Shown here piece after piece: positions 16,433 to 60,376 of a stretch of 64,000 bases of DNA (positions are counted from its first letter, which is position 1; each line of letters opens with the position of its first letter). This stretch comes from Geomicrobium halophilum (GTDB lineage: Bacteria; Bacillota; Bacilli; Bacillales; Marinococcaceae): positions 1 to 64,000 of the forward strand of contig NZ_JACHHJ010000006.1 of the NCBI RefSeq assembly GCF_014207655.1, given 5' to 3'. A model generated the notes under the pieces. The model saw nothing but the letters and a program-made list of their open reading frames with translations, ran no database searches and was not told where the DNA came from. Both the position numbers and the translations under genes were made by a program.

Positions 16433-16448
16433 TAATGACCTCCTACCC

Positions 16449-17195: not shown

Positions 17196-17208
17196 CACTT
17201 GCTCCCTC

Positions 17209-20066: not shown

Positions 20067-21584
20067 TTGAGCTTACAATTGAAGCATATAAGTGAAGCAG
20101 GAAAAAAAACCATTGAAGCCATTACGACGATTCAACAGTACATTAACGGGGGATTCGTTCCATCCTCGACGAATGAAACTTTTGAAAATTTGAGTCCATA
20201 TACCAATGAGCCTATCAATCAAGTAGCATCAGGTAGCTCTGATGATATTCACCAGGCGGTTCAAGCAGCTAAAAAAGCTTTCAAAGGTGAATGGGGGCAG
20301 ATGAAGTTAAAGGAGCGTTTAGGCTATATCTATAAAATTGCAGATCTTATTGATGAGCATATCGAAGAGATCGCACCGCTAGAGTCTTATGATACAGGAT
20401 TGCCGATCCAACAAACAAAAAAGATGGTAGCCCGTTCCGCTCAAAACTTCCGATTCTATGCAGAGATGGTGTCTACCCGTTTAGTTGGGGATGTGTATCC
20501 GGTAGATGATGAATTTCTCAACTATACCATTCAAAAACCCGTGGGTGTAGCTGGGTTAATCACACCGTGGAATGCACCTTTCATGTTAGAAACGTGGAAA
20601 ATTGCTCCAGCCCTCGCTACGGGAAATACGGTTGTATTAAAGCCGGCGGAGTGGTCCCCATTAACGGCGAACCGTTTAGCGGAGATCATCGATAAAGCAG
20701 ATTTGCCGGATGGTGTCTTTAACGTCGTTCACGGTTACGGGGAAACAGCCGGAGCGGCTCTTGTTTCTCATCCTGATGCACCACTTATCTCTTTTACCGG
20801 GGAAACGACAACCGGTTCAGAAATTATGAAAAATGGAGCCGACGCCTTGAAGCGTTTCTCTATGGAATTGGGTGGGAAGTCACCGATTATTGTTTTTGAT
20901 GACGCTGATATTGATCGCGCTCTGGATGCTTGTACGTGGGGAATATTCTCGTTTAATGGGGAACGTTGTACGGCAAACTCTCGACTATATGTTCAGGAAA
21001 GTATTGCTGAAGAATTTGTGAAGCGCTTACAAGAGCGTGTGGACAACATCAAGGTCGGCGACCCTATGGATGATAAAACGGAAGTGGGCCCACTCATTCA
21101 CAGGAACCATTGTGAAAACGTCCGCGGTTATTTAGAGATTGCAAAAGAAGAAGGAGCAGACATTTACAGTGGAAATATCCCATCTGATCTGAGCCGTGGC
21201 AATTACATTGCACCGACGCTTTTGCTCAACGCCAACAATGAAATGCGCTGTGTGCAAGAAGAAATCTTTGGTCCTGTCATTGCTGTGATGACCTTCGAGA
21301 GTGAAGAAGAAGTTGTAGAAAAAGCAAACGATGTACGTTATGGACTGGCGGGGTACGTCTGGACGAAAGATATTCAGCGCGGACATCGTGTCTCCCAAGC
21401 GATTGATTCCGGGATGCTCTGGGTGAATGCGCAAAATGTACGTGATTTACGTACGCCATTTGGAGGCGCAAAGCACAGTGGTATCGGCCGTGAAGGCGGT
21501 TATTATGCGTTTGAATTTTATACAGAGCAACAAGTGATTCATGTGGCCTTAGGCGATCACCATATCCCTCAATTTGGAAAATAA
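20067..21584 (+). CDS. hpaE: 5-carboxymethyl-2-hydroxymuconate-semialdehyde dehydrogenase
   Basis: A 505-residue NAD(P)-dependent aldehyde dehydrogenase. It starts with TTG at 20067, six bases after AAGGAGGA. Catalytic residues are visible: Glu267 in MELGGKSP and Cys301 in GERCTA. TPWNAPF, NTVVLKPAEWSP and GSEIMKNG show the cofactor-binding core. The ALDH family is broad; assignment to the homoprotocatechuate semialdehyde step rests on its position directly before hpaB and hpaD. It is the first gene of the rightward arm, 20 bases before hpaB, with a CcpA site at the promoter. Confidence 0.88.
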   Translation: MSLQLKHISEAGKKTIEAITTIQQYINGGFVPSSTNETFENLSPYTNEPINQVASGSSDDIHQAVQAAKKAFKGEWGQMKLKERLGYIYKIADLIDEHIEEIAPLESYDTGLPIQQTKKMVARSAQNFRFYAEMVSTRLVGDVYPVDDEFLNYTIQKPVGVAGLITPWNAPFMLETWKIAPALATGNTVVLKPAEWSPLTANRLAEIIDKADLPDGVFNVVHGYGETAGAALVSHPDAPLISFTGETTTGSEIMKNGADALKRFSMELGGKSPIIVFDDADIDRALDACTWGIFSFNGERCTANSRLYVQESIAEEFVKRLQERVDNIKVGDPMDDKTEVGPLIHRNHCENVRGYLEIAKEEGADIYSGNIPSDLSRGNYIAPTLLLNANNEMRCVQEEIFGPVIAVMTFESEEEVVEKANDVRYGLAGYVWTKDIQRGHRVSQAIDSGMLWVNAQNVRDLRTPFGGAKHSGIGREGGYYAFEFYTEQQVIHVALGDHHIPQFGK

Positions 21585-21604: not shown

Positions 21605-23080
21605 ATGCCAGCGAAAACGGGAGCTCAATATAGACAAGGATTAAGAGAAGCAAAGAACAACGTTTACATTCATGGCGAGCGTGTGGATGATCCAACCACC
21701 CATCCATCTTTTCAAAATGTGGTTGAATCCATGGCAGGCTTGTACGATTTGCAGCACGAAAAACCGGAGAAGATGCTTTACACATCACCAACGAGCGGAG
21801 ATAAAGTAGGCATGACCTTCCTTCGTCCAGCATCGATCGATGATCTTGTGAAAAGACGAGAGGCGATTCAGGAGTGGGCAAAAACTTCTGGCGGCATGAT
21901 GGGGCGCTCTCCGGATTATTTGAATGCTGAAGTGATGGCCATGGGCGTTGCTAATGATCTATTTGCCGAAGATGACCAAATGTTTGCAGATAATGCCCGT
22001 CATTACTACGAGTACGCTAGAGAAAACGATGTCAGCTTAACGCATACGCTCATACACCCTCAAGTCAATCGGCAAAAAGCGCAGCACGAACAAAAAGATG
22101 CAAACGTTGCCCTTCATTTAAAAGAAAAACGCTCAGATGGGATCATTGTAGATGGAGTGCGGCTGCTCGCAACACAAGGCGGAATTACGGATGAAATTCT
22201 CGTTTTCCCATCAACGGTCAAGCCGGCTGGGGAACTTGATGACCCGTATTCTCTGGCGTTCGTAGTGAAAAACAACACGCCTGGATTGAAGTTCATTAGC
22301 CGTGAATCCTTTGATTATGGTAAGTCGGAATGGGACCACCCACTAAGCAGTCGTTTTGAAGAAGGGGATGCGATCGTTTACTTTGATAACGTATTCGTAC
22401 CTTGGGATCGGGTCTTTGTTTGCGGAAACTCTTCAATCTGTAACCGTACATTCTTGGAAACGAATGCGGTCGTGCATATGTCCCACCAAGTGGTTGCGAA
22501 AAATGTTGTAAAAACAGAGTTCCTGTTAGGTACGGTCCTAAATCTTATGGATTCCATTGGCATCGATGGGTTCCAGCACGTGAAGGATAAAGGAACGGAA
22601 ATCATGCTTACATTGGAAACGATGAAATCTCATCTTTTCCGTGCCGAGCATAACGCAAAGCTGGACAAATGGGGAACGATGACACCGGATTTTGATGCAT
22701 TAAATGCAGCAAGAAACTGGTATCCGCGCGTTTATCCACGTATGGTTGAAATTCTTAGGATCCTTGGAGCTTCCGGTTTAATGGGAATTCCAACAGAGGC
22801 CGATTTCCAGCATGAAGAGCTCGGACCGATTGTTAACCGTGCACTCCAAGCGAAAAACCTGGAAGGATATGAGCGAGTACAGCTCTTCCGCTTAGCTTGG
22901 GATCTCACATTAAGCTCATTTGGAAGCCGCCAAATGCACTATGAATATTATTTCTTTGGAGATCCGATCAAGATGGGGATGAGTTATTTCGATGCGTTTG
23001 ATAAAGAACCATATAAAGCGTACGTTCAAGATTTCTTAAATCAAACCACGTCATCTAAACCAAGCTATGCCAAAGCATAA
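21605..23080 (+). CDS. hpaB: 4-hydroxyphenylacetate 3-monooxygenase, oxygenase component
   Basis: A 491-residue FADH2-dependent hydroxylase that converts 4-hydroxyphenylacetate to 3,4-dihydroxyphenylacetate. Family features include an N-terminal HpaB domain (TGAQYRQGLREAKNNVYIHGERV), VRLLATQGGITDEILVFPS, and the C-terminal helical flavin/substrate domain with HMSHQVVAKNVVKTEFLLG and SSFGSRQMHYEYYFFGDPI. Length is typical of Bacillaceae HpaB. The start has GAAAGGATGG upstream. It works with the flavin reductase HpaC, encoded two genes downstream, which supplies reduced flavin. Confidence 0.93.
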   Translation: MPAKTGAQYRQGLREAKNNVYIHGERVDDPTTHPSFQNVVESMAGLYDLQHEKPEKMLYTSPTSGDKVGMTFLRPASIDDLVKRREAIQEWAKTSGGMMGRSPDYLNAEVMAMGVANDLFAEDDQMFADNARHYYEYARENDVSLTHTLIHPQVNRQKAQHEQKDANVALHLKEKRSDGIIVDGVRLLATQGGITDEILVFPSTVKPAGELDDPYSLAFVVKNNTPGLKFISRESFDYGKSEWDHPLSSRFEEGDAIVYFDNVFVPWDRVFVCGNSSICNRTFLETNAVVHMSHQVVAKNVVKTEFLLGTVLNLMDSIGIDGFQHVKDKGTEIMLTLETMKSHLFRAEHNAKLDKWGTMTPDFDALNAARNWYPRVYPRMVEILRILGASGLMGIPTEADFQHEELGPIVNRALQAKNLEGYERVQLFRLAWDLTLSSFGSRQMHYEYYFFGDPIKMGMSYFDAFDKEPYKAYVQDFLNQTTSSKPSYAKA

Positions 23081-23094
23081 TAGGAGGGGGCTAT

Positions 23095-24075
23095 ATGAAT
23101 TTTGATATTATTCGTGCCGGGCGTGTGATTTTTCATGTTAAAGATTTAGATCGTTCAAAAGCGTTCTACGACGCGCTTGGCTTCATCGAAACAGAACGGA
23201 ATGAACACCACCTTTATTTACGGGGCCTGGAAGAGCATAATCATCATAGCATTTGTTTGAAAAAAAGTGATGACCCGGTCGTTGAAGTCATTAGCTACAA
23301 AGTAGCGGATGACCAGCATTTGGATTCCCTTGCTTCTTTTTTTGAAAGCAAGGGGCAGCCAATCACCTGGAAAGAAGCAGGGGAACAAAAAGCTCTTGGC
23401 CGGACGTTACGGACGACAGACCCCTCAGGTTTAACACTCGAATTTTATGCTGATATGGAATCCGTGGACATCATGCTTCAGCGTTATGACCTCTACAAAG
23501 GGGGGAAAGTCCAACGCATCGATCATTTTAATTGTATGATCCCGGACGTAGAATCAGCTTACAATTTTTACATTAACGAGCTTGGCTTCAGATGTTCAGA
23601 GTATACAGCAACGGAAGATGAGAAGATTTGGGCTGCTTGGCTCCATCGAAAGCCTAGTGTGCATGATGTCGCCTTTATGAATGGCCTCGGACCGCGTTTG
23701 CATCACGTAGGTTTTTGGCTCCGTGATCCGATGAGCTTGATCGATTGTTGCGATGTGTTGGCAGCATTGAATTACGGCCCCCATATCGAACGTGGGCCCG
23801 GCCGCCATGGACTATCGAATGCTTTCTTCCTGTATTTACGAGACCCGGACGGTCATCGTGTTGAACTGTACAATGGAGATTACTTGACGAGTGATCCCGA
23901 TTTCAAGCCAAAACGTTGGGATCTGGATGATCCGAAACGTGCAACATTTTGGGGACATGAAGCACCCGATAGCTGGTTCGAAGAGGCCTCTTTGTTTTTG
24001 GACCTTGATGGTTTGAAAAATGTAAATGTATCAGAGCCTCTTTTAGAGAAGAAGAAACCGACATTTGTCATCTAA
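23095..24075 (+). CDS. hpaD: 3,4-dihydroxyphenylacetate 2,3-dioxygenase (VOC extradiol type)
   Basis: A 326-residue two-domain vicinal-oxygen-chelate protein that opens the homoprotocatechuate ring. The metal ligands fall in the C-terminal domain: the His of RIDHFNC, the His of LHHVGFW and the Glu of HRVELYNGDY, forming the 2-His-1-Glu set. The N-terminal VOC repeat (VIFHVKDLDRSKAFYDALGF) is a non-catalytic copy. Gram-positive class I enzymes of this type use Fe2+ or Mn2+; which metal is used cannot be read from the sequence. It starts 15 bases after hpaB with AGGAGGGGG upstream, clearly in the same operon. Confidence 0.93.
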   Translation: MNFDIIRAGRVIFHVKDLDRSKAFYDALGFIETERNEHHLYLRGLEEHNHHSICLKKSDDPVVEVISYKVADDQHLDSLASFFESKGQPITWKEAGEQKALGRTLRTTDPSGLTLEFYADMESVDIMLQRYDLYKGGKVQRIDHFNCMIPDVESAYNFYINELGFRCSEYTATEDEKIWAAWLHRKPSVHDVAFMNGLGPRLHHVGFWLRDPMSLIDCCDVLAALNYGPHIERGPGRHGLSNAFFLYLRDPDGHRVELYNGDYLTSDPDFKPKRWDLDDPKRATFWGHEAPDSWFEEASLFLDLDGLKNVNVSEPLLEKKKPTFVI

Positions 24076-24101: not shown

Positions 24102-24566
24102 ATGGACGATAAAATGTTTCGAGCAGCAATGGGAAAATTTACGACAGGCGTGACCGTTATTACGACTGAAGTTGATGGCGATGTACGCGGAATGACTGCG
24201 AATGCGTTTATGTCTGTATCGATGGATCCTAAACTTATATTGATTTCAGTGGCTCATAAAGCAAGACTGAAAGAAGCCATTGAGCAATCAGGCCAGTTCG
24301 CGGTCAATGTGCTCTCGAATGAGCAAAAGGAGATGTCAATGATTTTCGCCGGACAGAAAAAGGATGCACCCGATATTGAGTTTAATTATTTTGAAGGGCT
24401 GCCGGTGATTGAAGATTCCTTGGTTTCCATTGTGTGTGATGTTCATAATAGCTATGTTGAGGGGGATCACACACTATTTGTAGGTAGAGTCAAGAATCTG
24501 GAATTACAAGACGGCGATCCACTAGCATTTCACGAGGGTTGTTATAAGCAATTACAAGAAGCTTAA
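24102..24566 (+). CDS. hpaC: Flavin reductase of 4-hydroxyphenylacetate 3-monooxygenase
   Basis: A 154-residue flavin reductase-like (FMN-binding split-barrel) protein. FTTGVTVITTEVDGDVRGMTANAFMSVSMDPKL is the family signature, and the C-terminal half has DHTLFVGRVKNLEL. It reduces FAD or FMN with NAD(P)H and passes the reduced flavin to HpaB. It lies between hpaD and the aldolase gene, 27 bases after hpaD, with GAGGTG before the start. The stop at 24564-24566 nearly abuts the next gene's ribosome binding site. Confidence 0.9.
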   Translation: MDDKMFRAAMGKFTTGVTVITTEVDGDVRGMTANAFMSVSMDPKLILISVAHKARLKEAIEQSGQFAVNVLSNEQKEMSMIFAGQKKDAPDIEFNYFEGLPVIEDSLVSIVCDVHNSYVEGDHTLFVGRVKNLELQDGDPLAFHEGCYKQLQEA

Positions 24567-24584
24567 ATGGGGGAGGAATCAGAC

Positions 24585-25487
24585 ATGCACGAAGCTATTA
24601 AATCAAGGTTAAAAGGCTCGATTGCCCCAGTAATCACGCCATTTACAAATGACCACGAACTCGATCTTAACAAACTTTCTGAACTGATTGAATTCCAGTT
24701 GGAAAATGGAAGCCACGGGATTTCTGTGACAGGAACTTCCGGGGAGCCGAGCTCACTTACAGTTACTGAACGTGAACAGGTGATGGAAACAGCAATTCAA
24801 ACGACAAATGGACGTGTGCCGGTAGCACCGGGAACAGGCTCTACAAATCATGACGAGACGATGCATTTGACAAAACGGGCACAAGAAATGGGTGCCGATG
24901 CTGCCATGGTAATCGTTCCTTATTATAATAAGCCGAACCAGCATGCGCTATATAGACATTTTAAGACCGTTGCAGATTCTGTTGACATTCCGATTATCAT
25001 TTATAACATCCCTGGCCGCACTGCACAAAATCTCCATGTCGATACGTTAGCAAGGTTAGTAGAGGATTGCCCGAACATCATCGGGGCAAAAGAATCAAAC
25101 AAAGATTTTGAGCATGTCAACCGCGTGCTTCTCAAGTGCGGAAGAGACTTTCTCCTTTTCTCAGGAATCGAGCTGCTTTGTTACCCGATGCTTGCCATTG
25201 GAGGATCTGGTTCAATCAGTGCAACCGCCAATGTGGAACCGAAAAAAGTTGCAGACCTTCATAATGCCTGGTTGGAAGGGGATGTTGCTACAGCCCAGCG
25301 ACTGCACTATGAGCTCATGCCATTAAACGATGTATTGTTTATGGATACGAACCCAGCACCGGTAAAAGCCGCACTTGGGATGATGGGTAAAATCGATCCT
25401 GCTCTTAGATTACCAATGGATCTACCATCTGAGGAACTGCAAGGTAAAATCCGTCAAACGTTGCAGGAATATTATATTGAAGTGTAG
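24585..25487 (+). CDS. DapA-family aldolase/lyase of the hpa operon
   Basis: A 300-residue class I aldolase of the dihydrodipicolinate synthase (NAL) family. Catalytic features are present: Schiff-base Lys169 in GAKES, Tyr140 in IIIYNIPGRT, Arg145 in the same motif, and the GTSGEPSSL loop. The ATG at 24585 is chosen because GGGGAGGA sits 7 bases before it; the in-frame ATG at 24567 would put that site inside the gene. Its place at the end of hpaE-B-D-C suggests it cleaves 2,4-dihydroxyhept-2-ene-1,7-dioate to pyruvate and succinate semialdehyde, the step done by HpaI in enteric bacteria. NPAPVKAALGMMG and Arg145 keep it close to true DapA, so lysine biosynthesis or another oxo-acid lyase cannot be excluded. 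Confidence 0.82.
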   Translation: MHEAIKSRLKGSIAPVITPFTNDHELDLNKLSELIEFQLENGSHGISVTGTSGEPSSLTVTEREQVMETAIQTTNGRVPVAPGTGSTNHDETMHLTKRAQEMGADAAMVIVPYYNKPNQHALYRHFKTVADSVDIPIIIYNIPGRTAQNLHVDTLARLVEDCPNIIGAKESNKDFEHVNRVLLKCGRDFLLFSGIELLCYPMLAIGGSGSISATANVEPKKVADLHNAWLEGDVATAQRLHYELMPLNDVLFMDTNPAPVKAALGMMGKIDPALRLPMDLPSEELQGKIRQTLQEYYIEV

Positions 25488-49066: not shown

Positions 49067-49960
49067 TTACTCGTGGTTTGCCCATTCCTTAAATGTTTCC
49101 CAGATCCATTGGCTGGCATCCATTTGTTGGCTGACTTTGCCGTTGGAAGTGGGGGATTGTACTTTTGGCCCTCCTGGCCACGTATGGCCGCCGCCTTTTA
49201 CATGATAGAACATGACGAGCGGGCGCTTGTCTTTGTCCAGGTAACATGTTTGTTCAATGCGCGTAGGGTCGTTAAGTTCTCTGGGCTTCATTCGTTCTTT
49301 TTTGATTTCTGGAGCATGAGACGAACGGTAAGCGAAGGTTTCTGCTGTTTTCTTCGCGCCTATCAAGCTGGTTGTGGAGAATGTTCTTTCTCCGGCGGCA
49401 TCAGCTTCGGAGAAGGGTACAATCGGGTCGGAATTTCCCATAATAAAGATGAGGGGAGGGACCGACTTCACGTTCTCGATCAAGTGTTTAGGGAGAGGTC
49501 CAGCCACGCTACCGATTGCCGCGAAAGTATTTGGAAGTTCAATCGCGAGTCGGAGGCTGAAGCTGGAACCATTTGAGAAACCAGTTGTATACACTCGTTG
49601 GGGGTCTACATGGCATATTTGCTGCCAATACACGATTAACGTTTGCACAAATAAAACGTCATCAACGTTTGCTTGGTAAACAGGGTTGTCTTCCACTCCT
49701 TCGTTCCATTGCTTGGAAGAAGGGTCCCTTGGGTTCGCCTGTGTGGATTCAGGGTATAAGACGAAAAATTGTTCTTCTTCCGCGAGCCTATGAAAATTTG
49801 TCAAGCGACTATGATGCTCCCCGCTGCTTGTCGCTCCATGAAAGCTAAGCAGGAGGGGGAGCTCATGTTTCTCATCATACGATGTCGGTATATAATATAA
49901 AAATGACCGTTGTCGCCCTGCAACTTCAATGATTTCTTTCGTTAACGTGCCTTTTTTCAT
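49067..49960 (-). CDS. CE1/PHB-depolymerase-like esterase (feruloyl or acetyl-xylan esterase candidate)
   Basis: A 297-residue alpha/beta-hydrolase of the LpqC/feruloyl esterase/PHB depolymerase group. Catalytic Ser129 is in GFSNGSSF, Asp in MGNSDPIVPFSEAD, and His in GGGHTWPGG; the oxyanion motif is LLSFHGATSSG. It has no signal peptide, so it would act on imported ester-linked fragments or other cytosolic esters. It points toward the GH10 gene across a bidirectional terminator. Proximity suggests removal of ferulate or acetate from xylo-oligomers, but no family member this short lets me decide between these and other esters. Confidence 0.78.
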   Translation of the reverse strand: MKKGTLTKEIIEVAGRQRSFLYYIPTSYDEKHELPLLLSFHGATSSGEHHSRLTNFHRLAEEEQFFVLYPESTQANPRDPSSKQWNEGVEDNPVYQANVDDVLFVQTLIVYWQQICHVDPQRVYTTGFSNGSSFSLRLAIELPNTFAAIGSVAGPLPKHLIENVKSVPPLIFIMGNSDPIVPFSEADAAGERTFSTTSLIGAKKTAETFAYRSSHAPEIKKERMKPRELNDPTRIEQTCYLDKDKRPLVMFYHVKGGGHTWPGGPKVQSPTSNGKVSQQMDASQWIWETFKEWANHE

Positions 49961-49989: not shown

Positions 49990-51408
49990 TTACATATTTT
50001 TGCTTGCATCATTCGGTTTACTGCTATCTTCCTGGGTTTCTTCCGACTTTGTCAGCGTCCATCCTGTGTAGGCATAAAATAGAGCGATGAACGGAGTCAC
50101 GAGACTAAGAAATACAAAGAAAACATATTCCATCCCCACATTCAAGGTGGTCATTACAAAGGCTCCAATAACTCCCCACGGGATGAGCGGATGCAAAATG
50201 GTTCCCCCGTCTTCAATGGTACGGCTCAGGTTTTTCGGATGGAGGTGGTGACTTCGGTATGCCTCTTCATACATTTGTCCTGGGAGAATAATAGATAGGT
50301 ATTGCTCGCCAGTAACGATATTGACACCTAAACAGGAAGCTAATGTGGAAGCGATGGTGTTCCCTCTGCTTCTGAGTGCGTTCTTCATTCCCTCGATCAA
50401 GGCAGCTGCTATACCTATGCCCTGGATTAACCCGCCGAAAGCAAGCGCAATAATAATCAGCGAGACCCCAAAAAGCATGCTATCTAAGCCACCCAAAGTA
50501 AGAAGTTCATCAATGGCTTCGTGGCCGGTCTCAGCATCATACCCAAAGTGAGCAGCTCCCATAATATCCCCTAAGTTACTGCCAGGCATGGTGTAGAAGG
50601 TTGTCAAGGCAGCAACGATTAACCCTAACGAAAGGGAAGGAATGGGTTTAAATCTTTTAACGGCTAATCCAATAATTACAAGTGGAGATAAAAGCGTTAC
50701 GATACTAATAGGGAATTCGGATTGCATCACTTGCATCATCTCATCAATTTGGCTCGTGTCAGCTGCACTTTCATGCGTGACTAACCCAATGACCCCGAAA
50801 ATAATTAAGGCAATGATAAGGGCGGGAATGGTCGTCCATAACATATGGCGTATATGCTCAAAAATATTTGTCTTCGCCGTTGCAGCCGCAAGGTTTGTGG
50901 TGTCGGAAAGCGGCGATAGTTTGTCGCCAAAAATCGCCCCGCTCACGATAGCACCAGCGGTCATAGCAGGAGAAACATCCATTCCGTATGCCACTCCTAT
51001 TAATGATACGCCAATCGTTCCTATCGCACTTAATGAGCTCCCGGTCATGATCGCCACAACAGCAGTGATGATTACGGTAGAAACTAAAAAAGTGGAGGGG
51101 GAAAGAAGTTGTAAACCATAGTAGGTAATCGTTTGTACGGTACCGTTCAATACCCACACACCGATCAGCGTCCCAATCAAACTAAGAATTAAAATGGCTG
51201 GAATGCCGTGTGAAATTCCTTTTACCAAATCTTTCTCCATATCCCCCCATGTATAGCCAAGCTTAAATCCATAAAGGGTGACAACCATTGCCCCCAATAA
51301 AATAGGGATATGGGGAGCGGCTTCATAATAAAGAATACCCAACGCGAGAATACCGATAATTAGGAGCAAAACCAATCCAGAACCTTTTGCGGATGCTTTG
51401 TGTTCCAT
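49990..51408 (-). CDS. nhaC: NhaC-family Na+/H+ antiporter
   Basis: A 472-residue polytopic membrane protein of the NhaC type. GSSLSAIGTIGVSLIGVAYGM, FGDKLSPLSDTTNLAA and TGEQYLSIILPGQMY are characteristic, the second carrying conserved acidic and polar residues of the ion path. It exchanges Na+ for H+ and supports pH homeostasis in salty or alkaline media; some relatives exchange organic acids such as malate for lactate. It follows the E3 gene on the same strand after about 90 bases and may belong to the 2-oxoacid dehydrogenase operon. Confidence 0.9.
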   Translation of the reverse strand: MEHKASAKGSGLVLLLIIGILALGILYYEAAPHIPILLGAMVVTLYGFKLGYTWGDMEKDLVKGISHGIPAILILSLIGTLIGVWVLNGTVQTITYYGLQLLSPSTFLVSTVIITAVVAIMTGSSLSAIGTIGVSLIGVAYGMDVSPAMTAGAIVSGAIFGDKLSPLSDTTNLAAATAKTNIFEHIRHMLWTTIPALIIALIIFGVIGLVTHESAADTSQIDEMMQVMQSEFPISIVTLLSPLVIIGLAVKRFKPIPSLSLGLIVAALTTFYTMPGSNLGDIMGAAHFGYDAETGHEAIDELLTLGGLDSMLFGVSLIIIALAFGGLIQGIGIAAALIEGMKNALRSRGNTIASTLASCLGVNIVTGEQYLSIILPGQMYEEAYRSHHLHPKNLSRTIEDGGTILHPLIPWGVIGAFVMTTLNVGMEYVFFVFLSLVTPFIALFYAYTGWTLTKSEETQEDSSKPNDASKNM

Positions 51409-51501: not shown

Positions 51502-52908
51502 TTATGAGCTCGTACGATGAATCGCCATCCCAGTCAAAGCTTCGGATGCTTCAAGCCAAGCTTCATTCAAACTTGGATGGGGATAATAAGGGTATGTGAG
51601 ATCCTCCATGCGTGCACCCATTTCTAGTGCTTGTACAGCTTGGCTGATGAATGCTACGGATCCTTCCCCGATTAAATGACATCCTAGAATGACATCTGTC
51701 TCTTTTTCACTAATGATTTTAAAAAGTCCCTCTTTTTTGTTAATGATAGATGCATAACCATTTGATGCTAAAGGGAATTCACCAATATGAATGTCATACC
51801 CTTCGTTTAAGGCTTCTTCTTCCGTAAGGCCAGTCGTTGCGATGGGTCTTATGCTATAACCAACGTTGGGACGTGCCCACGGGTCCCATACACTCTTTTT
51901 ACCACCTATACGTTCTCCTGCAACTTTGCCCTGTTTGATGGCTTCTACAGCGAGAGAGCCATGAGCTGTCACATCACCAACGGCAAAGATATGTGGTTGG
52001 TTGGTTTGCGTTGTTTCTGTAATCGTAATAAGCCCTTCGTTCATCACTTCAATTCCGCAGACTTCAAGTCTCAATGCTTTCGTGTTTGCCACTCGTTCAT
52101 CAGGCAAGTATATGTGAGAAGCTGTAATGGTTTGCTCTTGATCTCCGAGCCGAAAGGTTGCTTCGAGATGTTTTTCATAAGGAGACACTTTCTTAAGGGC
52201 AGCGTCTTTTAAAATTTTGATTTTGGACTTCTTAAAAAGCCTGATAAGTTCCTTGTTTATCGTTTCATCATAAGGGAGCGGCCCGTCGAGTGCGAATGTT
52301 ATTTTTGTACCGAAAGCCGAAAAGGAGGAAGCAACCTCGATGGCTTGATAGTCTGAACCGCAAACGATGAGATGGTCCGGGCACTCTGTTTGCTCATAGA
52401 TGGAAGTGGGATCGAGAATTCTCTCATGAGTGAGTGTAAAACCTTTTGGCCTGACGTATGATGATCCCGTTGCGATCACAGCTTGTTCAAATTCATATTT
52501 TTCAAATGAATCGCCGTTTTCAACCCCTACCTGATTGTCAGATAGAAATGTTGCTGTCCCTTGGATTACTTCTACGTTATGTTTTTTTAATAGTGCCTGC
52601 ACCCCTTTGGTCAATGAGTTGATGACAGTGGCTTTATGCTTTTGCAGTTCGTTGATATCAAAGGTGAATGACTCGAATGTCATGCCAAAAGAGGGGAAGT
52701 CATGGGCATCACGCATTCTCTTGGCTGCTTCGGCAAACACCTTTGATGATATACAACCATTGTTCAAGCATATCCCCCCAAGTGCTTGCTTCTCGACTAA
52801 CGTGACCTCCTTTCCGAGTTGGGCGGCACGGATGGCCGCATGGTAGCCGCCAGGTCCACCGCCGATAATAAGGACCTCTTTTTCATGGGCAAAATCTCCA
52901 ACAACCAC
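51502..52908 (-). CDS. lpdA: Dihydrolipoyl dehydrogenase (E3)
   Basis: A 468-residue FAD disulfide oxidoreductase. The FAD fold is VLIIGGGPGGYHAA, and the redox disulfide is in GGICLNNGCISSK; the usual Pro after Ile is Ser here. The C-terminal catalytic His-Glu is in YYPHPSLNEAW. The NAD fold in the middle (HLIVCGSDYQAIEVASSFSAFG) is less canonical (GSDYQAIE in place of GGGYIGxE). It starts with GTG immediately after the stop of the E2 gene, so the two are coupled. It reoxidises dihydrolipoyl groups of the complex encoded upstream. Confidence 0.9.
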   Translation of the reverse strand: MVVGDFAHEKEVLIIGGGPGGYHAAIRAAQLGKEVTLVEKQALGGICLNNGCISSKVFAEAAKRMRDAHDFPSFGMTFESFTFDINELQKHKATVINSLTKGVQALLKKHNVEVIQGTATFLSDNQVGVENGDSFEKYEFEQAVIATGSSYVRPKGFTLTHERILDPTSIYEQTECPDHLIVCGSDYQAIEVASSFSAFGTKITFALDGPLPYDETINKELIRLFKKSKIKILKDAALKKVSPYEKHLEATFRLGDQEQTITASHIYLPDERVANTKALRLEVCGIEVMNEGLITITETTQTNQPHIFAVGDVTAHGSLAVEAIKQGKVAGERIGGKKSVWDPWARPNVGYSIRPIATTGLTEEEALNEGYDIHIGEFPLASNGYASIINKKEGLFKIISEKETDVILGCHLIGEGSVAFISQAVQALEMGARMEDLTYPYYPHPSLNEAWLEASEALTGMAIHRTSS

Positions 52909-54027
52909 TTATATCAACTCCAAAAGCATTAAATTAGGATTCTCTAATAATTGTTTTACGCGCCTGGAAAAAGCAAGTGCTGTTAAGCCGGTCACGGCTC
53001 GAGTATCAAAGGTTAACGTTACGTTTACCATGGAGCGGGTGGTGATCTCCTGATTGTATACCATGGCTTTCTCATGGATAGGGGAAATGATGGCACCGCC
53101 GGCTTGCGAACCATGGATGGCAGCAGGGACAACCTCGTTTGCGTTCTCGAGGTGATGGATGGTAAACGTAGCCCCGCTTTTTAGATGGTCCTTGGCTAAA
53201 CCGTCCTCAATGTCCCGGATAGATGACTGTTCCACATTTTGGATAACTTTCGTTTCGTATACTGGGTGGCTTACCTCAAAGTGGCATTCCGATGACAAAT
53301 AAACCTTGCCTTCTGACTCATCCACGCGGGCATTTAATGATGGATAATCTTGTAAGGCCACTTGTATTCCTTTGATGAAAAAGGAATTGAACGAAATATT
53401 CAATGGTTCACTTATACGAAGGAGATACGTGACGTCAACCTCCTCTGAGTGGACCGCGCTCGGTGCCGTTATAAACGAACGAGTTTCCTGGGTATGCAGG
53501 CCTGCACCCGGATGTTGTACAGGCGCTGTACGTTGTTCAGGTGAGGGCTTTGTTTCTGGGAATGTTTCTTCTGGTACCGAAATCTCTTCAATATAGGCGT
53601 AGACATCTTCGTCAGTCACACGGCCGGCAGAGCCAGTTCCCTTGACTTGTTCAATGTCAATCTCGTGATCCCGGGCAATTTTCCGTGTATAAGGTGTGGC
53701 GAGCACTCGTCTTGTAGGAGGGGGTGATAGCACTTCCAAAGTTGCTTTCTGAGCTTCTTGCGGATGTTCATTCCGTTGTGCCTCTACTCCGTTGGAATCG
53801 TCAATTTTAAGAATTGTATCTCCGACTTCAATGACATCCCCCACATTTGCTTCTATGTGACTCACCACCCCGGCCGACGGAGCGGTGAGTTCAGCCGTCA
53901 TTTTATCGGTTTGTACTTCTACAAGGGGGGCATCATTTTTTACTGCCTCTCCTGTTTCAACGAGAAAACTCAGAATTTCAGCTTCATGCATGCCTTCCCC
54001 GATATCGTGCAGTTTTACTTCTACCAT
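52909..54027 (-). CDS. 2-oxoacid dehydrogenase E2 (dihydrolipoamide acyltransferase) lacking catalytic motif
   Basis: A 372-residue E2. The start ATG 54027 has AAGGAGG 7 bases upstream. One lipoyl domain comes first (lipoyl Lys42 in VQTDKMTAE), then a peripheral-subunit-binding domain (ATPYTRKIARDHEIDIEQVKG, GRVTDEDVYAYI), then the acyltransferase core from about 190. The core is short: the usual MRKxIAxxM opening is missing, although EEVDVTYLL is kept. The universal active-site motif DHRxxDG reads DTRAVTG, so both the catalytic His (Thr342) and the Asp (Thr346) are replaced. Codons ACT at 53002-53004 and ACC at 52990-52992 (minus strand) confirm this. The protein may act as a lipoyl carrier and scaffold rather than as a normal acyl-CoA-forming enzyme. 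Confidence 0.88.
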   Translation of the reverse strand: MVEVKLHDIGEGMHEAEILSFLVETGEAVKNDAPLVEVQTDKMTAELTAPSAGVVSHIEANVGDVIEVGDTILKIDDSNGVEAQRNEHPQEAQKATLEVLSPPPTRRVLATPYTRKIARDHEIDIEQVKGTGSAGRVTDEDVYAYIEEISVPEETFPETKPSPEQRTAPVQHPGAGLHTQETRSFITAPSAVHSEEVDVTYLLRISEPLNISFNSFFIKGIQVALQDYPSLNARVDESEGKVYLSSECHFEVSHPVYETKVIQNVEQSSIRDIEDGLAKDHLKSGATFTIHHLENANEVVPAAIHGSQAGGAIISPIHEKAMVYNQEITTRSMVNVTLTFDTRAVTGLTALAFSRRVKQLLENPNLMLLELI

Positions 54028-54045: not shown

Positions 54046-55047
54046 TTAAAAATCCACCGCATGGAGAATGGCTGTTTGGATTTTTTCTGTGCTTGGCAAA
54101 TATTCTTGCTCTAAGGAATAAACGGGCACTGGAGTGTCGAATCCCGCTACACGCTGGATGGGTGCACGCAAGTATAGAAAAGAAGTGTCATTGATGAGCG
54201 AAATCACATCGTTACTGACACCCCCAGTAGCTGGTGCTTCATGGATGATCGCGGCTCGACCGGTTTTTTGTACTGAAGCGGCGATGGTTTCTTTATCAAG
54301 TGGATAAAGGGTGCGCAAATCGATGACTTCGCATGAAACATTTTTCTTTGCTTCTAACTTTTCAACGGCTTTCATCGTATCTATAACCATGGCTCCCCAT
54401 GTAAAGACGGAGATATCATCGCCTTCTTTGAGTACTGATGCTTTACCAATCTCGACGTTGTATTTACCATCTGGAACTTCGGTACGGCTGGAACGATAGC
54501 AGCGCATCGGCTCTAAAAAGAGAACGGGATCCGGATCATCGATGCTTGCGATCAGAAGTCCTTTCGCATCATAAGCGTTGGAAGGGACGACGACTTTAAT
54601 GCCTGGCATTTGCGTGAACAGTGCTTCTACACTATCGGAATGAATCTCAGGAGCGCGTACACCCGCACCATATGGAGCACGTACAACAAGTGGCACAGTG
54701 AAACGTCCCATTGAGCGTTGCCGTAACCTTGTTGCGTGGGTCATAAGCTGGTTGAACGCTGGATAAATAAAGCCAAGAAATTGCATTTCCGCAATCGGAC
54801 GGAAACCATTGACCGCAAGCCCGATGGAATTTCCAATAATCCCTGATTCGGAAATCGGTGTATCGATCACTCTATCCTCACCAAATTCTTCATATAATCC
54901 TTCGGTTGCGCGAAAGACGCCGCCGTTCACCCCGACATCTTCACCGAGGATCATCACGTCATCATGTTCTTTCAGCATTTCATGCATCGCATCCCGTACA
55001 CCTTGAATCATGGTCATTTTTTTGGTGTTAATGGCTGTAGTTGTCAT
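54046..55047 (-). CDS. 2-oxoacid dehydrogenase E1 beta subunit
   Basis: A 333-residue transketolase-like beta subunit. GEDVGVNGGVFRATEGL, PISESGIIGNSIGLAVNG, RAPYGAGVRAPEIHSDSVEA and ATGGVSNDV are the usual blocks of PDH/BCDH E1 beta, including the thiamine-contacting Glu in the first block. It overlaps the E1 alpha gene by 4 bases (ATGA). Together with alpha it decarboxylates a 2-oxoacid on thiamine diphosphate and passes the acyl group to lipoyl-E2. Substrate type (pyruvate, branched-chain, aromatic) cannot be read from it safely. Confidence 0.92.
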   Translation of the reverse strand: MTTTAINTKKMTMIQGVRDAMHEMLKEHDDVMILGEDVGVNGGVFRATEGLYEEFGEDRVIDTPISESGIIGNSIGLAVNGFRPIAEMQFLGFIYPAFNQLMTHATRLRQRSMGRFTVPLVVRAPYGAGVRAPEIHSDSVEALFTQMPGIKVVVPSNAYDAKGLLIASIDDPDPVLFLEPMRCYRSSRTEVPDGKYNVEIGKASVLKEGDDISVFTWGAMVIDTMKAVEKLEAKKNVSCEVIDLRTLYPLDKETIAASVQKTGRAAIIHEAPATGGVSNDVISLINDTSFLYLRAPIQRVAGFDTPVPVYSLEQEYLPSTEKIQTAILHAVDF

Positions 55048-56114
55048 TGAGTCGTCCTCCCTTGTACAGCAAGATGATTATTGACTTGCTCTTGAATGGT
55101 CCAGGTCGGCGTATCATAGACGTAATCAAACAGTTGGCTGAGATCGGGCTCGGGATAGGATTCCATTTCAGTCAGTGCAGTTTCGATCTCAAGGGTAATC
55201 TCTTCCTCAATTCTCGTAAGCCATTCTTCCTCCCATGCTTCTTGTGTTTTTAAGTAACGTTCGATGCGAAGAAGCGGATCTGTCGTTTCTCGGCGTGCTT
55301 CCGTTTCTTTTTGATCGCGGTATTTCGACGGATCATCAGCAGTGGTGTGGGCTCCGTACCGCCAGGTGACAGCTTCAATCAGGGTCGGTCCCTTCCCGTC
55401 TCTTGCACGGTCAACAGCTGATTGGGTTGCAAAATACACAGACAGTACATCATTTCCATCGATGCGCAAGCATTCAATGTCATAAGCGAGCCCTTTTTGC
55501 GCAATCGTTTTTGTTTTCATCTGTCGTTTCATCGGAACACTGATGGCATACCCATTATTTTGATTAAAAAAGACGGTCGGAGTATTGAAGACGCTTCCAA
55601 AATTAAGCGCTTCATGAAAATCTCCCTCAGAAGTCGCACCGTCACCAAAGTATACGAGAGAAATACGGTCCGATCCACGCTTTTTTTCCGCCCAAGCTGC
55701 CCCTGTCGCGTGCAATAGTTGAGAAGCAATCGGAATTCCTGGTGGGAAAATATTAACTCCTTCCGGTGCCACATTTCCTTCTGGGCGGCCACGCCAATTC
55801 AAAAGCAGGTTCCGCATGGAATGACCAAATGTCAAAGTTGCGGCATGATCACGGTAAGTCGGAAACATCCAGTCTCCTTCTTGGAGAGCGAGTGAGCTTC
55901 CAATTTGTGCAGCTTCCTGTCCTTCGTACGGGACATATGTGCCGATTCGTCCTTGTCTTTGCAAATGTACGCACTTTTTATCAAGCATACGAGCGCGTAA
56001 CATCTTATAATAAAAGGATTTAATCTCGTCTGTTGTTATATCTCCCATGGAACTGGAATCTACGATTTCTCCTTCTTCGTTTATGATTTGGTGCATGGGG
56101 AATTGTTCTAGCAT
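55044..56114 (-). CDS. 2-oxoacid dehydrogenase E1 alpha subunit
   Basis: A 356-residue thiamine-diphosphate-binding alpha subunit of PdhA/BkdA/AcoA type. The cofactor motif is GDGATSEGDFHEALNFG...FNQNNGYAIS, and the conserved YRDHAATL and RYGAHTTADDPSKYR (phosphorylation-loop region with the active-site His) are present. It is the first of the four complex genes, after the HisC-like aminotransferase gene with a 31-base gap. The genetic neighbourhood (aminotransferase before, TRAP importer divergent) suggests an oxoacid made from an amino acid rather than housekeeping pyruvate. Confidence 0.92.
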   Translation of the reverse strand: MLEQFPMHQIINEEGEIVDSSSMGDITTDEIKSFYYKMLRARMLDKKCVHLQRQGRIGTYVPYEGQEAAQIGSSLALQEGDWMFPTYRDHAATLTFGHSMRNLLLNWRGRPEGNVAPEGVNIFPPGIPIASQLLHATGAAWAEKKRGSDRISLVYFGDGATSEGDFHEALNFGSVFNTPTVFFNQNNGYAISVPMKRQMKTKTIAQKGLAYDIECLRIDGNDVLSVYFATQSAVDRARDGKGPTLIEAVTWRYGAHTTADDPSKYRDQKETEARRETTDPLLRIERYLKTQEAWEEEWLTRIEEEITLEIETALTEMESYPEPDLSQLFDYVYDTPTWTIQEQVNNHLAVQGRTTQ

Positions 56115-56145: not shown

Positions 56146-57243
56146 CTAGATACTTAGAATTTCTTCCAAAGCACTGATAAACAGCTGGTTTTCATCTGTT
56201 GTGCCGATCGTTACCCGTATCATCGTTGGATATCCCATCATGTGGCCCGGGCGTATAATGATGCCCCTTTTCAAAAGTTCGTCGTTGATGGTTTCAGCTG
56301 CCATGTTCGTATCAACCATAATGAAGTTTGTATGAGTAGAAAAATAGGAAAGGTCGAGTCTCTTAAATTCATTTTCTAAATATTGGCGTCCGGCATTGTT
56401 TTGTTCTTGGGTGGTCCGCATAAATTCATAATCATCTAAGCAGGCAAGAGCAGCGGCCTGGGCAAAACGGTTGACGTTAAAGGGATCCTTGCTTTTGAGC
56501 AGCTCTGAAACAATGGATGGGTGCATGATCCCGTAGCCTATCCGTAAAGATGCGAGTCCATAAATTTTTGAAAAGGTGCGGAGGGCGATTAAGTTTGGAT
56601 ATTCGTCTAAGTAATGAAGTGTGGCAAAATAATCGTCACTGCGAATATATTCATAATAGGCTTCGTCCACGATGACAAGGATGTGTGGCGGCACGTTTTT
56701 TATAAATTCCAAAAGTTCATGGGCTGAAATGATCGTTCCCGTAGGATTGTTGGGGTTGCAAACAAAAATCATTTTAGTGCTCTCGGTAATGGCATTGGTC
56801 ATTGCTTGCAGATCGTGGAGGCCCCCTTGTTTCATCGGTACTTCAATAGGGATCCCTCCATCGATGATGACATTCGTTTTGTACCGTGGAAAAGTAACGC
56901 TTGCCATGATGACTTCGTCATTTTCTTGTAAATAGGTTCGTGTCAGCATGCCAATGATCTCATCGGAGCCATTTCCGAAGATAAGTTGATTTTCGTTTAC
57001 ATCTAAACGATGGGCTAGTTTATGTTTAAGAACGGGCGCTGTAATCTCTGGATAATAATGGGTATCCTTGATTTCAGCAGTAATCGCTTTCTGGGCAAGC
57101 GGAGAAGCACCGTAGGGATTTTCGTTTGATGCCATCTTAATCACATGTGTGATGCCAAGCTCACGCTGCAGCTCTTCGATCGGTTTTCCGGGAGAGTACA
57201 TCGAGATTTCTTCCATTTGACTTCGCGGCGAGATGGTGTTCAT
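56146..57243 (-). CDS. HisC-like class I/II aminotransferase
   Basis: A 365-residue PLP aminotransferase of the histidinol-phosphate/aromatic amino acid type. MASNENPYGASPLAQ, CNPNNPTGTIIS, VDEAYYEYI and the PLP lysine in RTFSKIYGLASLRIGYG are all present, as is the C-terminal Arg in IRVTIGT. No histidine biosynthesis genes accompany it. Instead it leads the E1-E2-E3 genes, so it more likely converts an amino acid (aromatic or similar) to the 2-oxoacid that the complex uses. It is divergent from the dctPQM operon. Confidence 0.85.
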   Translation of the reverse strand: MNTISPRSQMEEISMYSPGKPIEELQRELGITHVIKMASNENPYGASPLAQKAITAEIKDTHYYPEITAPVLKHKLAHRLDVNENQLIFGNGSDEIIGMLTRTYLQENDEVIMASVTFPRYKTNVIIDGGIPIEVPMKQGGLHDLQAMTNAITESTKMIFVCNPNNPTGTIISAHELLEFIKNVPPHILVIVDEAYYEYIRSDDYFATLHYLDEYPNLIALRTFSKIYGLASLRIGYGIMHPSIVSELLKSKDPFNVNRFAQAAALACLDDYEFMRTTQEQNNAGRQYLENEFKRLDLSYFSTHTNFIMVDTNMAAETINDELLKRGIIIRPGHMMGYPTMIRVTIGTTDENQLFISALEEILSI

Positions 57244-57517: not shown

Positions 57518-58552
57518 ATGATGAAAGTTCTTGTTCCGGTATTGTGTGTGTTGGTGTTGTTAGGTGCTTGTGATAGTGGGGAAAAGGCCTCCGGCACGAC
57601 GACTGAAGGAGAGCATACCGAGCTTATTTTTTCTCATTTTTTCCCCGCGAATCATATACAGGAAACGGAACTTGTCCAGGGCTTTATTGATGAGATAGAG
57701 GAAGCCACAGAGGGGAGGGTGACGTTTACATCTTATCCAGGTGGCCAGCTTGCAGATCCGGATGGGCATTATGAAGCAGCTGCCACGGGTGTTGCCGACG
57801 CTGGATTTAGTGTTCATAGTTATACCCCGGGTCAATTCCCGCTATCATCTGTGATGGAATTACCCTTTATGAGTGGGTCGGGGACAGAAGGATCGGAAAC
57901 GTTATGGGCGTTATATGAAGAGTTTCCAGAAGTACAGGATGAATACTCGGATACTGTTCCCTTATGGTTATCCACTTCAGAGCCGGGATATATTTTTACA
58001 GTTGATGAACCTGTTGAGAGTCCCGAAGATCTTCAGGGAATGATTATTCGTTCTCCTTCGCCAGAGGTCAACCAATGGCTGGAAATGATGGGAGCGACCC
58101 CGGTATCAATGCCGATGGGTGATACTTATCAGGCCTTGGAGCAAGGGGTAGTAGATGGCACTGTTGGCCCGCCCCATACGCTGGTCGATTATGGTTTGCA
58201 GGAACTTGTTGATTACGTAACCGTTGGCAACTTTTATATGACTACGTTTTTTGCTGTCATGAATCAAGAGGCCTGGGACTCGATTGGTGAACAGGATCAA
58301 GAAGCCATTGAAAAAATTACTGGAGAAAATACAGCAAATGTAGCCGGTACCATTATTGATGATCGTGCTGAGGAGGCTATGATCGCTGCTGAAGAAGCTG
58401 GAGCGGAAATGATTGAACTGGATGATGAACAACTCGATGAGTGGGAAGAGGAAGTGCAGCCGGTCATTGATAATTGGATTGAGCGTATGGAAGAAGAAGG
58501 ATTGCCTGGCGAAGAGGTTTACGATAGAGCTTTGGAATTAGGAGCTGAATAG
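57518..58552 (+). CDS. dctP: TRAP transporter solute-binding lipoprotein (DctP family)
   Basis: A 344-residue binding protein with a lipoprotein signal (LLGAC, Cys18 region). TELIFSHFFPANHIQETELVQGFIDEIEEATEGRVTF, IRSPSPEVNQWLEMMGATPVSMPMGDTYQALEQGVVDGT are typical of DctP proteins, and the last block includes the carboxylate-binding region. It should bind an organic acid outside the membrane. GGAAGGGGA precedes the ATG. First gene of dctPQM, with a cre-like site, a -10 box and a possible GntR operator upstream. Aromatic or 2-oxo acids are as likely as C4-dicarboxylates. Confidence 0.9.
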   Translation: MMKVLVPVLCVLVLLGACDSGEKASGTTTEGEHTELIFSHFFPANHIQETELVQGFIDEIEEATEGRVTFTSYPGGQLADPDGHYEAAATGVADAGFSVHSYTPGQFPLSSVMELPFMSGSGTEGSETLWALYEEFPEVQDEYSDTVPLWLSTSEPGYIFTVDEPVESPEDLQGMIIRSPSPEVNQWLEMMGATPVSMPMGDTYQALEQGVVDGTVGPPHTLVDYGLQELVDYVTVGNFYMTTFFAVMNQEAWDSIGEQDQEAIEKITGENTANVAGTIIDDRAEEAMIAAEEAGAEMIELDDEQLDEWEEEVQPVIDNWIERMEEEGLPGEEVYDRALELGAE

Positions 58553-58565
58553 GGGTAGATAGCTG

Positions 58566-59069
58566 ATGTGGAGATATATCACGAAAGCTGAAATAATTAT
58601 AACAAAAATTAGTAAATTCGCCCAAATAGGTGCGAGTGCTGCTTTGCTCTTTATCATGTTTCTGATTCCGCTCGATATCCTGTTGCGGCGTTTCTTCAAT
58701 CAATCGATCACAGGGGCGTATGAATTGGTTGAAATCGGCACAGCGTTCACCATTTTTTTCGCGTTAGCGATGACGAGCCATTATAAAGAGCATATTGCCA
58801 TCGGTTTTTTGGTTGATAAGTTATCTCATCGAACAAGGAATGCTGTCGAGGGGGTTGTCGATGTCGTTGTCTTCATTGTGGTGACCTTTGTAGGGATTCA
58901 ACTATTTGAGCACGCGATGAGGATCATGGATCGGTCAACAACTACGAATGATCTAGGTCTCCCCCTTTACCCTTTTATCATCATTGTTTCAATTTCTACA
59001 TTTATATTTGCGGCAAAAGTTCTTTGTAATGGGCTGAATCATTTTAGAGAGGTGGTGCAGAAATCATGA
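58566..59069 (+). CDS. dctQ: TRAP transporter small permease (DctQ family)
   Basis: A 167-residue protein with four hydrophobic helices and the DctQ block LRRFFNQSITGAYELVEIGTAFTIFFALA. It lies 13 bases after dctP and overlaps dctM by 4 bases (ATGA). It pairs with DctM in the membrane. Confidence 0.9.
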   Translation: MWRYITKAEIIITKISKFAQIGASAALLFIMFLIPLDILLRRFFNQSITGAYELVEIGTAFTIFFALAMTSHYKEHIAIGFLVDKLSHRTRNAVEGVVDVVVFIVVTFVGIQLFEHAMRIMDRSTTTNDLGLPLYPFIIIVSISTFIFAAKVLCNGLNHFREVVQKS

Positions 59070-60376
59070 GTCCAGAGTTTATCGGCCTATTGGGCATCGC
59101 TGTACTCCTCCTTCTTTTTTTATTGAAAGTCCCTGTGAGTATTGCCTTAATTATAGTAGGGGCGACAGGGTTTGGGTTTATTAGAGGGTTTGATGCTGCA
59201 TTTGTGCAAATGGGAAGCACTCCATTTAATACAGCAAGTGATTATTCATTAAGTGTCATCCCTCTTTTTATTTTGATGGGAATGTTTTTGTCTTACAGCG
59301 GGTTTGGGCAAGATTTGTATCAATCCGTCGACAAGTGGATTGGTCATCTCAAAGGTGGGATGGCAGTCACTACGGTGGGAACAAGTTCGATTTTTGCAGC
59401 GATTTCCGGTTCAGTTAATGCTACGACTGCAACGATCGCCAAAGTATCGCTCCCCGAGATGAAACGCTATAACTATAGCCCATCACTTTCAACAGCCTGT
59501 GTAGCAGCGGGAGGGACGTTAGGGCCGCTTATTCCTCCGAGTGTGATCTTGATTTTGTATGGAATTCTTACGATGGAGTCGATTGGTTCGCTCCTTATTG
59601 CCGGCATCATTCCGGGAATTGTGTTAATACTTGTTTTTTTGCTCACCATCTATATATGGATTGCAAAATATCCTGATGCAGCTCCTCCCACTGTTAAGTC
59701 GTCCTGGAGTGATCGTTTTCAATCGTTGAAAAGTGTATGGCCATTTGTACTGTTATTTATCGTCAGCATTGGCGGTATTTATTTCGGGATATTTACACCT
59801 ACTGAAGCCGGTGCGGTCGGTGCATTTGGTTCTTTTCTATTAGCTGTATTATCCGGGCGATTAAACGTGTCAACATTAGTAGGGGCCTTAAGTGACACTA
59901 CACGTTTATCCGCAATGATATTTTTAATTTTAATTGGTGCAGAGCTTTTTAGTCAGTTTTTATCGATTAGCCGTATTCCCACAGAGATTACGATGTTTGT
60001 TAATCAGCTTGATTGGTCACCGATGATGATTCTGATTGCTATCTTGCTCATCTATTTTCTGCTAGGTCTATTTTTAGAGGGGATCGCGATTCTTGTATTA
60101 ACGCTGCCTGTTGTGTATCCATTAATCACAGAGCTTGGATTTGATGGTATCTGGTTCGGTGTGATCATGGTGATGGTGATTAATATTGGTCTAATTACAC
60201 CGCCGCTTGGCATTAGCGTTTATATTATTAGTGGTGTCGTTAAGGACATTTCTATTGAGAAAATATTCAAGGCAGTTTTGCCTATGGTAGGAGCGATGAT
60301 CTTCTGTGTCATCTTGTTTATTCTATTTCCAGAAATCATTACGATTTTACCAAAGTTAATGATGGGGAGTGGATAG
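59066..60376 (+). CDS. dctM: TRAP transporter large permease (DctM family)
   Basis: A 436-residue, about 12-helix permease. TSSIFAAISGSVNATTATIAKVSLPEM and AAGGTLGPLIPPSVILILYGI are the diagnostic Na+-site hairpins of DctM, and GLFLEGIAILVLTLPVVYPL and INIGLITPPLGISVYI the second repeat. It is translationally coupled to dctQ and completes the importer. A strong bidirectional terminator follows at 60467. Confidence 0.93.
   Translation: MSPEFIGLLGIAVLLLLFLLKVPVSIALIIVGATGFGFIRGFDAAFVQMGSTPFNTASDYSLSVIPLFILMGMFLSYSGFGQDLYQSVDKWIGHLKGGMAVTTVGTSSIFAAISGSVNATTATIAKVSLPEMKRYNYSPSLSTACVAAGGTLGPLIPPSVILILYGILTMESIGSLLIAGIIPGIVLILVFLLTIYIWIAKYPDAAPPTVKSSWSDRFQSLKSVWPFVLLFIVSIGGIYFGIFTPTEAGAVGAFGSFLLAVLSGRLNVSTLVGALSDTTRLSAMIFLILIGAELFSQFLSISRIPTEITMFVNQLDWSPMMILIAILLIYFLLGLFLEGIAILVLTLPVVYPLITELGFDGIWFGVIMVMVINIGLITPPLGISVYIISGVVKDISIEKIFKAVLPMVGAMIFCVILFILFPEIITILPKLMMGSG

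Follow-up and report, generated by a model that had tools for sequence, protein, structure and literature searches.

According to textbooks, E1-E2-E3 complexes produce acyl-CoA, and the locus described here raises the question of what such a complex yields once the active site of its E2 subunit has been lost. The locus lies within a window of 64,000 nucleotides of Geomicrobium halophilum DNA (the whole stretch analyzed), in which features are on the minus strand unless stated otherwise.

The E2 gene and its operon

The original prediction placed the E2 gene correctly at 52909-54027, to which the strand (minus) can be added. There, the frame encodes a protein of 372 residues without interruption, with AAAGGAGG 5' of the ATG, while stops occur throughout the plus strand; translation and Pfam searches identified it as a degenerate E2 conserved in 11 genomes. 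The three parts of an E2 are present in the usual order, i.e., a lipoyl domain, a binding domain and a core with the acyltransferase fold. The first two had been predicted to be intact, and both were recognized by Pfam: the lipoyl domain spans residues 3-75 (PF00364, 68 bits) and contains the attachment lysine Lys42 in the motif QTDK (53902-53904), invariant in 11 of 11 degenerate E2s, and the peripheral subunit (E3/E1) binding domain covers residues 108-146 (53590-53706), with the match to E3_binding (PF02817, 50 bits) at residues 108-142. The core (residues 183-372, 52912-53481), assigned by AlphaFold2 (AF2), Foldseek searches against the PDB and alignment, matched PF00198 (2-oxoacid_dh) with 79 bits over profile positions 22-232 of 232. 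Since the match begins at position 22, the first 21 positions are missing, in line with the predicted loss of the opening segment, and the alignment likewise lacks this segment (RKQIAKKMTQSL; RKQIAKKM).

In place of DHRxxDG, residues 341-347 (52987-53007) read DTRAVTG by translation and comparison with relatives, with T342 at the catalytic His and T346 at the second Asp. The alignment further revealed GATFTIHH where GGTFTISN is expected and the loss of the TPIIN loop, so that the window E2 lacks the active-site motif with its usual loops. The claim that the catalytic His and Asp are both gone had to be narrowed: the first Asp of the motif (D341) remains, as does the Arg (R343), and both are invariant in 11 of 11 degenerate E2s. 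The His had also been taken for the general base of acyl transfer, a role that is disputed. In the E. coli E2o, replacing either His375 or Asp374 by Ala leaves about 2% of the activity (2.1% for His375Ala), whilst His375Trp is nearly harmless; the authors of that study favour oxyanion stabilisation and oppose a general base (PMC5986005). For this reason, our argument draws on the ruin of the active site as a whole and not on any single residue.

The window E2 missed the curated E2 equivalog cut-off (best 145 bits vs. 449), a weak criterion because the PDH E2 of the same genome misses its cut-offs too. Three further E2 genes are found in the genome, all with DHRxxDG; two adjoin other E1-alpha genes (PDH type and BKD type) and the third is a 2-oxoglutarate-type SucB, above its cut-off. 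A second intact E2 serving this E1/E3 set, against which the original prediction had advised checking, was not encountered, as the other three go with the PDH, BKD-type and OGDH sets; no other E2 of the genome belongs to the E1 of this operon. Over the whole protein, the window E2 is 23-27% identical to the housekeeping E2s. Plasmid-borne E2 relatives are all below 60% identity, none of them close.

Upstream of the E2 gene lie those for E1 beta (54046-55047; Pfam, and NCBIfam PRK09212 with 293 bits, cut-off 321) and E1 alpha of the PDH_E1_alph_x type (55044-56114; TIGR03181, 462.6 bits, cut-off 411), followed by a HisC-type aminotransferase (56146-57243; TIGR01141, 355 bits, cut-off 277), which is a second copy, the other being at C1:983892. 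The aminotransferase had been put forward as a possible constant partner of the altered motif. Three degenerate loci (L037, L041 and L072) have no copy of it within 8 kb, and it is present beside intact Halobacillus E2s; it was discarded as a diagnostic partner. An NhaC-family transporter (49990-51408; TIGR00931, 436 bits, cut-off 370) is kept in most of these operons. Divergent from the operon, a TRAP transporter, DctP-DctQ-DctM (57518-60376, plus strand), was assigned by Pfam for DctP and by synteny; it may import an aromatic acid. DctPQM genes were also seen near the operon at three other loci (L035, L036 and L046).

The E3-type flavoprotein (51502-52908) was identified by its motifs and by TIGR01350 (382 bits, below the cut-off of 408.8). 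It keeps the redox CxxxxC and HP..E motifs, and its NAD motif GxGxxG has become GSDYxxxE. In about 60 related loci from many genera, GxGxxG (GGGYIGxE) is mostly replaced by G-x-D-Y-x-x-x-E, with the FAD motif, CxxxxC and HP..E intact, which suggests that this E3 lineage may differ in how it binds NAD+ or may pass electrons to another acceptor. The change was considered as part of the E2 event and rejected, being common to the E3 lineage as a whole, phenylalanine-type operons and those with live E2s included; the E3 oddity predates the E2 loss. Several of these operons (L061, L066 and Halobacillus-type loci) have no E3 gene and must depend on a housekeeping E3.

Loss of the active site across relatives

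Relatives were drawn from the same family and from a public genome collection, and 97 E2 loci across the order were aligned. The active-site His column holds T, P, R, Q or S in 11 loci and His in the other 86; the possibility that close homologues all have DHRxxDG, which would have pointed to a local mutation, is not what was found. The E2s with a dead core come from 11 genomes and seven genera of one family of salt-loving bacilli, among them Natribacillus halophilus, Bacillus piscicola, Alteribacillus, Salsuginibacillus and Salibacterium, and the frame is open in every case. Their motif variants comprise DPRAVTG, DTRAASA, DTRALNG, DRRVTTG, DQRQTSG, DTRQVPP, DTRKISP and DSREVDA, and none of the 11 keeps the opening segment, the GGTFTISN loop or the TPIIN loop in unaltered form.

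In a tree of E1 alpha plus E1 beta (84 rows, quick IQ-TREE search, SH-aLRT support only), the 11 dead-E2 operons formed one clade (SH-aLRT 99), in agreement with the suggestion that the altered motif is conserved in a clade. This clade is sister to the Halobacillus/Thalassobacillus operons (SH-aLRT 99), and both are nested among phenylalanine-type operons. The sister E2s keep DHRVADG, with the exception of one independently decaying copy. In that copy, from Halobacillus hunanensis (L057), the motif reads DHGAADG, the opening segment is lost and Est, the hydrolase described below, is present; its core shares 58-59% identity with its nearest relatives, compared to 95-97% among those relatives themselves. 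Its decay is apparently separate from that of the 11-member clade, and incomplete. Core lesions were thus counted in 12 of 21 Est-bearing E2s (the 11-member clade plus the H. hunanensis copy) vs. 0 of 76 Est-less E2s, a comparison that rests on few independent events (about two), since the full lesion arose once and there is one partial case. DHRxxDG was found in all 76 Est-less E2s. We regard the clade-wide loss of the E2 active site as near certain.

Mean identity among the 11 dead E2s is 71% in the lipoyl domain, 68% in the binding domain and 32% in the core, compared to 77%, 70% and 62%, respectively, among Halobacillus-type E2s. The lipoyl Lys and key residues of the binding domain are invariant among the dead E2s. 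For pairs with unsaturated or moderate dS, core dN/dS was 0.18-0.29 in dead E2s vs. 0.009-0.035 in live ones, i.e., around 5-30-fold higher, which indicates that the dead core is under relaxed purifying selection, far from neutral. Local mutation or decay is ruled out by the 11 genomes and this selection, and the view that the gene does not look like random decay is borne out by the 11 genomes carrying the lesion vs. none of the 76 Est-less relatives.

The fold appears to have been retained. AlphaFold2 modelled the window core with pLDDT values mostly of 85-96, and its best Foldseek matches in the PDB were E2s, at an rmsd of approximately 3 Å and a TM (target) of about 0.65-0.76. The only invariant core residues in the 11 dead E2s are K219, V265, E327, D341, R343, A350, E362, P364 and E370, none of which is a newly conserved nucleophile. 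The simplest reading is that the dead core serves as a scaffold, which would also explain the purifying selection on it.

The Est hydrolase and the hpa pathway

The original prediction was incomplete in that it connected the operon neither with the hydrolase Est (49067-49960) nor with the hpa cluster at 16-25 kb. Est, an LpqC/PHB-depolymerase-type alpha/beta hydrolase according to profile search, alignment, structure prediction and co-occurrence, is the diagnostic partner of the dead E2. Within the family, it was found in 11 of 11 dead-E2 genomes vs. 0 of 18 others (Fisher 2.9e-8, uncorrected for kinship), and a search of 397 genomes of the order gave 12 matches. Eleven of these lie next to this E2, and the remaining one (G170) is weaker, apparently secreted, and has no E2 nearby. 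A serine hydrolase triad is present, with Ser129, Asp178 and His259 invariant in 14 sequences, the predicted fold is confident (pLDDT 93), and as no signal peptide is visible by eye, the protein was read as cytoplasmic. Among solved structures, those closest to it are of PHB, acetylxylan and feruloyl esterases, with acyl-protein thioesterases as weak matches only. Est also stands beside intact Halobacillus-type E2s; since it was already with these live-core E2s, its arrival precedes the core loss, and on the tree Est was gained once.

The window carries a full homoprotocatechuate (hpa) set. HpaF, the 5-carboxymethyl-2-hydroxymuconate isomerase (16052-16444; tblastn 53% over 131 aa, 4e-45), and HpaG2 and HpaG1 (16449-17985; TIGR02303 and TIGR02305 above cut-off) are encoded on the minus strand. 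The plus strand encodes HpaE (20067-21584; TIGR02299, 801 bits, cut-off 638), the 4-hydroxyphenylacetate 3-monooxygenase HpaB (21605-23080; TIGR02309, 775 bits, cut-off 480), HpaD (23095-24075; TIGR02295, 421 bits, cut-off 321), an HpaC-like flavin reductase (24102-24566; NF042921, 135 bits, below the cut-off of 200) and HpaI, a DapA-type aldolase (24567-25487; TIGR02313, 504 bits, cut-off 397).

HpaD scored above cut-off in 11 of 11 dead-E2 genomes vs. 5 of 18 others of the family, and lies at most about 30 kb from the operon in 9 of the 11, being far from it in G002 and G004. By sequence inspection only, the operons at L041 and L072, far from hpa, adjoin genes resembling those of carnitine/betaine catabolism and betaine ABC transport genes. 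Est-bearing operons are mostly near hpa genes, and at Halobacillus-type loci the order aminotransferase-E1 alpha-E1 beta-E2-NhaC-Est-HpaG1-HpaG2-HpaF occurs on a single strand. In another family, one locus (L132:1283-11463) shows HpaI-E-B-D-C, an amino-acid dehydrogenase, an intact E2 and HpaG1-HpaG2-HpaF; no E1 genes or Est are nearby. The usual alternative route for tyrosine, 4-hydroxyphenylpyruvate dioxygenase, is absent from all 11 dead-E2 genomes. Taken together, the complex likely serves the conversion of tyrosine to 4-hydroxyphenylacetate.

This contrasted with the setting of the Est-less live-core relatives, where a PheDH-like gene was found at 67 of 76 loci, a hotdog thioesterase-like gene at 57 and PaaX or PaaA at 24; in G007, G008 and G010, a live-core operon lies a few kb from PaaA. 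Fictibacillus and many Bacillales cluster PaaX, a hotdog thioesterase-like protein and a Phe/Trp-dehydrogenase-like enzyme with a live-core E1-E2-E3, an arrangement that probably represents a route from phenylalanine to phenylacetyl-CoA. The Paa pathway begins at phenylacetyl-CoA, whereas HpaB takes free 4-hydroxyphenylacetate, the entry compound of the hpa pathway; the CoA-transfer site has thus been lost where the pathway uses a free acid.

A putative free-acid complex and its counterparts

From the conserved loss of the active site, the selected fold, the intact lipoyl and binding domains, the linkage to hpa genes and the exclusive pairing with Est, all read from sequence, we infer the substrate, its hydrolysis by Est and the independence of CoA. 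Among the options listed in the original prediction, release of a free acid or hydrolysis of the acyl-lipoyl is the one best supported by this evidence. We lean towards an aromatic 2-oxo acid dehydrogenase complex that would yield the free acid instead of the CoA ester, with Est somewhat more probably than otherwise acting as an acyl-lipoyl hydrolase that bypasses CoA. The aminotransferase would convert tyrosine to 4-hydroxyphenylpyruvate, which E1 would decarboxylate, acylating the lipoyl arm of E2. The E2 core, devoid of acyl transfer, would act only as a scaffold for lipoyl arms, E1 and E3, and Est would cleave the 4-hydroxyphenylacetyl-lipoyl thioester. Free 4-hydroxyphenylacetate would then pass via HpaBC into the homoprotocatechuate pathway, and the lipoyl group would be re-oxidised by an E3. 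Counting against this scheme are the esterase kinship of Est, the two operons far from hpa, and the retained D341 and R343; the genome also encodes other thiamine-diphosphate enzymes that could be arylpyruvate decarboxylases.

The main rival, with a small but real chance of being correct, is that the core still moves the acyl group slowly to CoA via D341 and proximity, and that Est is an ordinary acyl-CoA thioesterase releasing 4-hydroxyphenylacetate from its CoA ester. We kept it because the retained D341 corresponds to Asp374 of E2o, and the residual activity of His375Ala and the slight penalty of His375Trp fit it as well (PMC5986005). So do the invariance of D341 and R343, the presence of Est beside intact E2s, where a CoA ester could be its substrate, and the PDH-like PglB/C of pristinamycin, which feeds the thioesterase PglD via CoA esters (PMC7089894). 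Nevertheless, the damage reaches beyond the His to the opening segment and both loops in every member of the clade, and core identity has fallen to 32%. A bolder version of the free-acid scheme, in which CoA is dropped altogether, with the core as a pure scaffold, a detached lipoyl thioesterase and an own E3 passing electrons to an acceptor other than NAD+, has only a slim chance.

A role as an E3BP/protein-X-like subunit, joining an active PDH- or BKD-type E2 of the cell that would then carry out the CoA transfer, is quite improbable. Such subunits share its anatomy of lipoyl and binding domains plus an inactive core, and the genome does encode three intact E2s elsewhere; nevertheless, no second E2 was seen in the operon at any of the loci compared, the low identity to the housekeeping E2s speaks against it, and the pairing with Est would be left unexplained. 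A new activity of the core, e.g., direct hydrolysis or transfer to a non-CoA acceptor, would agree with the purifying selection and the retained fold, but is highly improbable given that no new conserved nucleophile appeared and that scaffolding accounts for the selection. Pseudogene-like decay without functional meaning, for which the raised core dN/dS speaks, has a close to negligible chance with dN/dS well below 1, open frames in 11 genomes and seven genera, and an invariant lipoyl Lys and binding-domain residues.

Under the favoured free-acid reading, the CoA-transfer step was seemingly removed in a whole clade whose downstream pathway wants a free acid, with the core kept as a scaffold, and the live-core relatives that feed phenylacetyl-CoA pathways constitute a natural control. 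If it is true, the complex would take tyrosine to 4-hydroxyphenylacetate with need of neither an arylpyruvate decarboxylase nor CoA. No report of a lipoyl-dependent 4-hydroxyphenylpyruvate dehydrogenase complex was found in the open-licence literature, of which coverage is incomplete. As a caution, such genes should not be annotated as acyltransferases.

Compared to known systems, the window E2 resembles the PDH/BKD-type E2s (PF00198) in domain order, lipoyl lysine, binding domain, core fold and an operon with E1 alpha, E1 beta and E3, and differs in that its clade lost the His, the second Asp, the opening segment and the substrate loops. In eukaryotic PDHX (E3-binding protein or protein X), a catalytically dead core likewise accompanies the lipoyl and E3-binding domains, whereas the window E2 is the only E2-like gene of its operon and has a hydrolase, not an active E2, as its partner. 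The acetoin dehydrogenase E2 AcoC (PRK14875) joins a lipoyl domain and an alpha/beta hydrolase in one polypeptide. There, too, the lipoyl domain works with such a hydrolase in place of an acyltransferase core; in AcoC, however, the core has given way to the fused hydrolase, while the window E2 retains its core and the hydrolase has a gene of its own.

In L-phenylglycine biosynthesis, PglB/C takes phenylpyruvate through a CoA route with the thioesterase PglD (PMC7089894). In this system, too, a single operon encodes a thioesterase, an aminotransferase and a PDH-like E1 whose substrate is an arylpyruvate, but it uses CoA esters, belongs to an antibiotic pathway and has no reported dead E2. Finally, human mitochondrial ABHD11, an alpha/beta hydrolase, removes glutaryl from E2 lipoate and is inactive on glutaryl-CoA (PMC12643935). 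Like Est, it is a serine alpha/beta hydrolase, and the putative target of Est is similarly the acyl-lipoyl thioester of an E2. ABHD11 is a remover of adducts, whereas Est is of the LpqC/PHB-depolymerase type, is encoded with its complex and would be an enzyme of the main route; should Est prove to be a lipoyl thioesterase, it would represent a bacterial, main-route counterpart of ABHD11.
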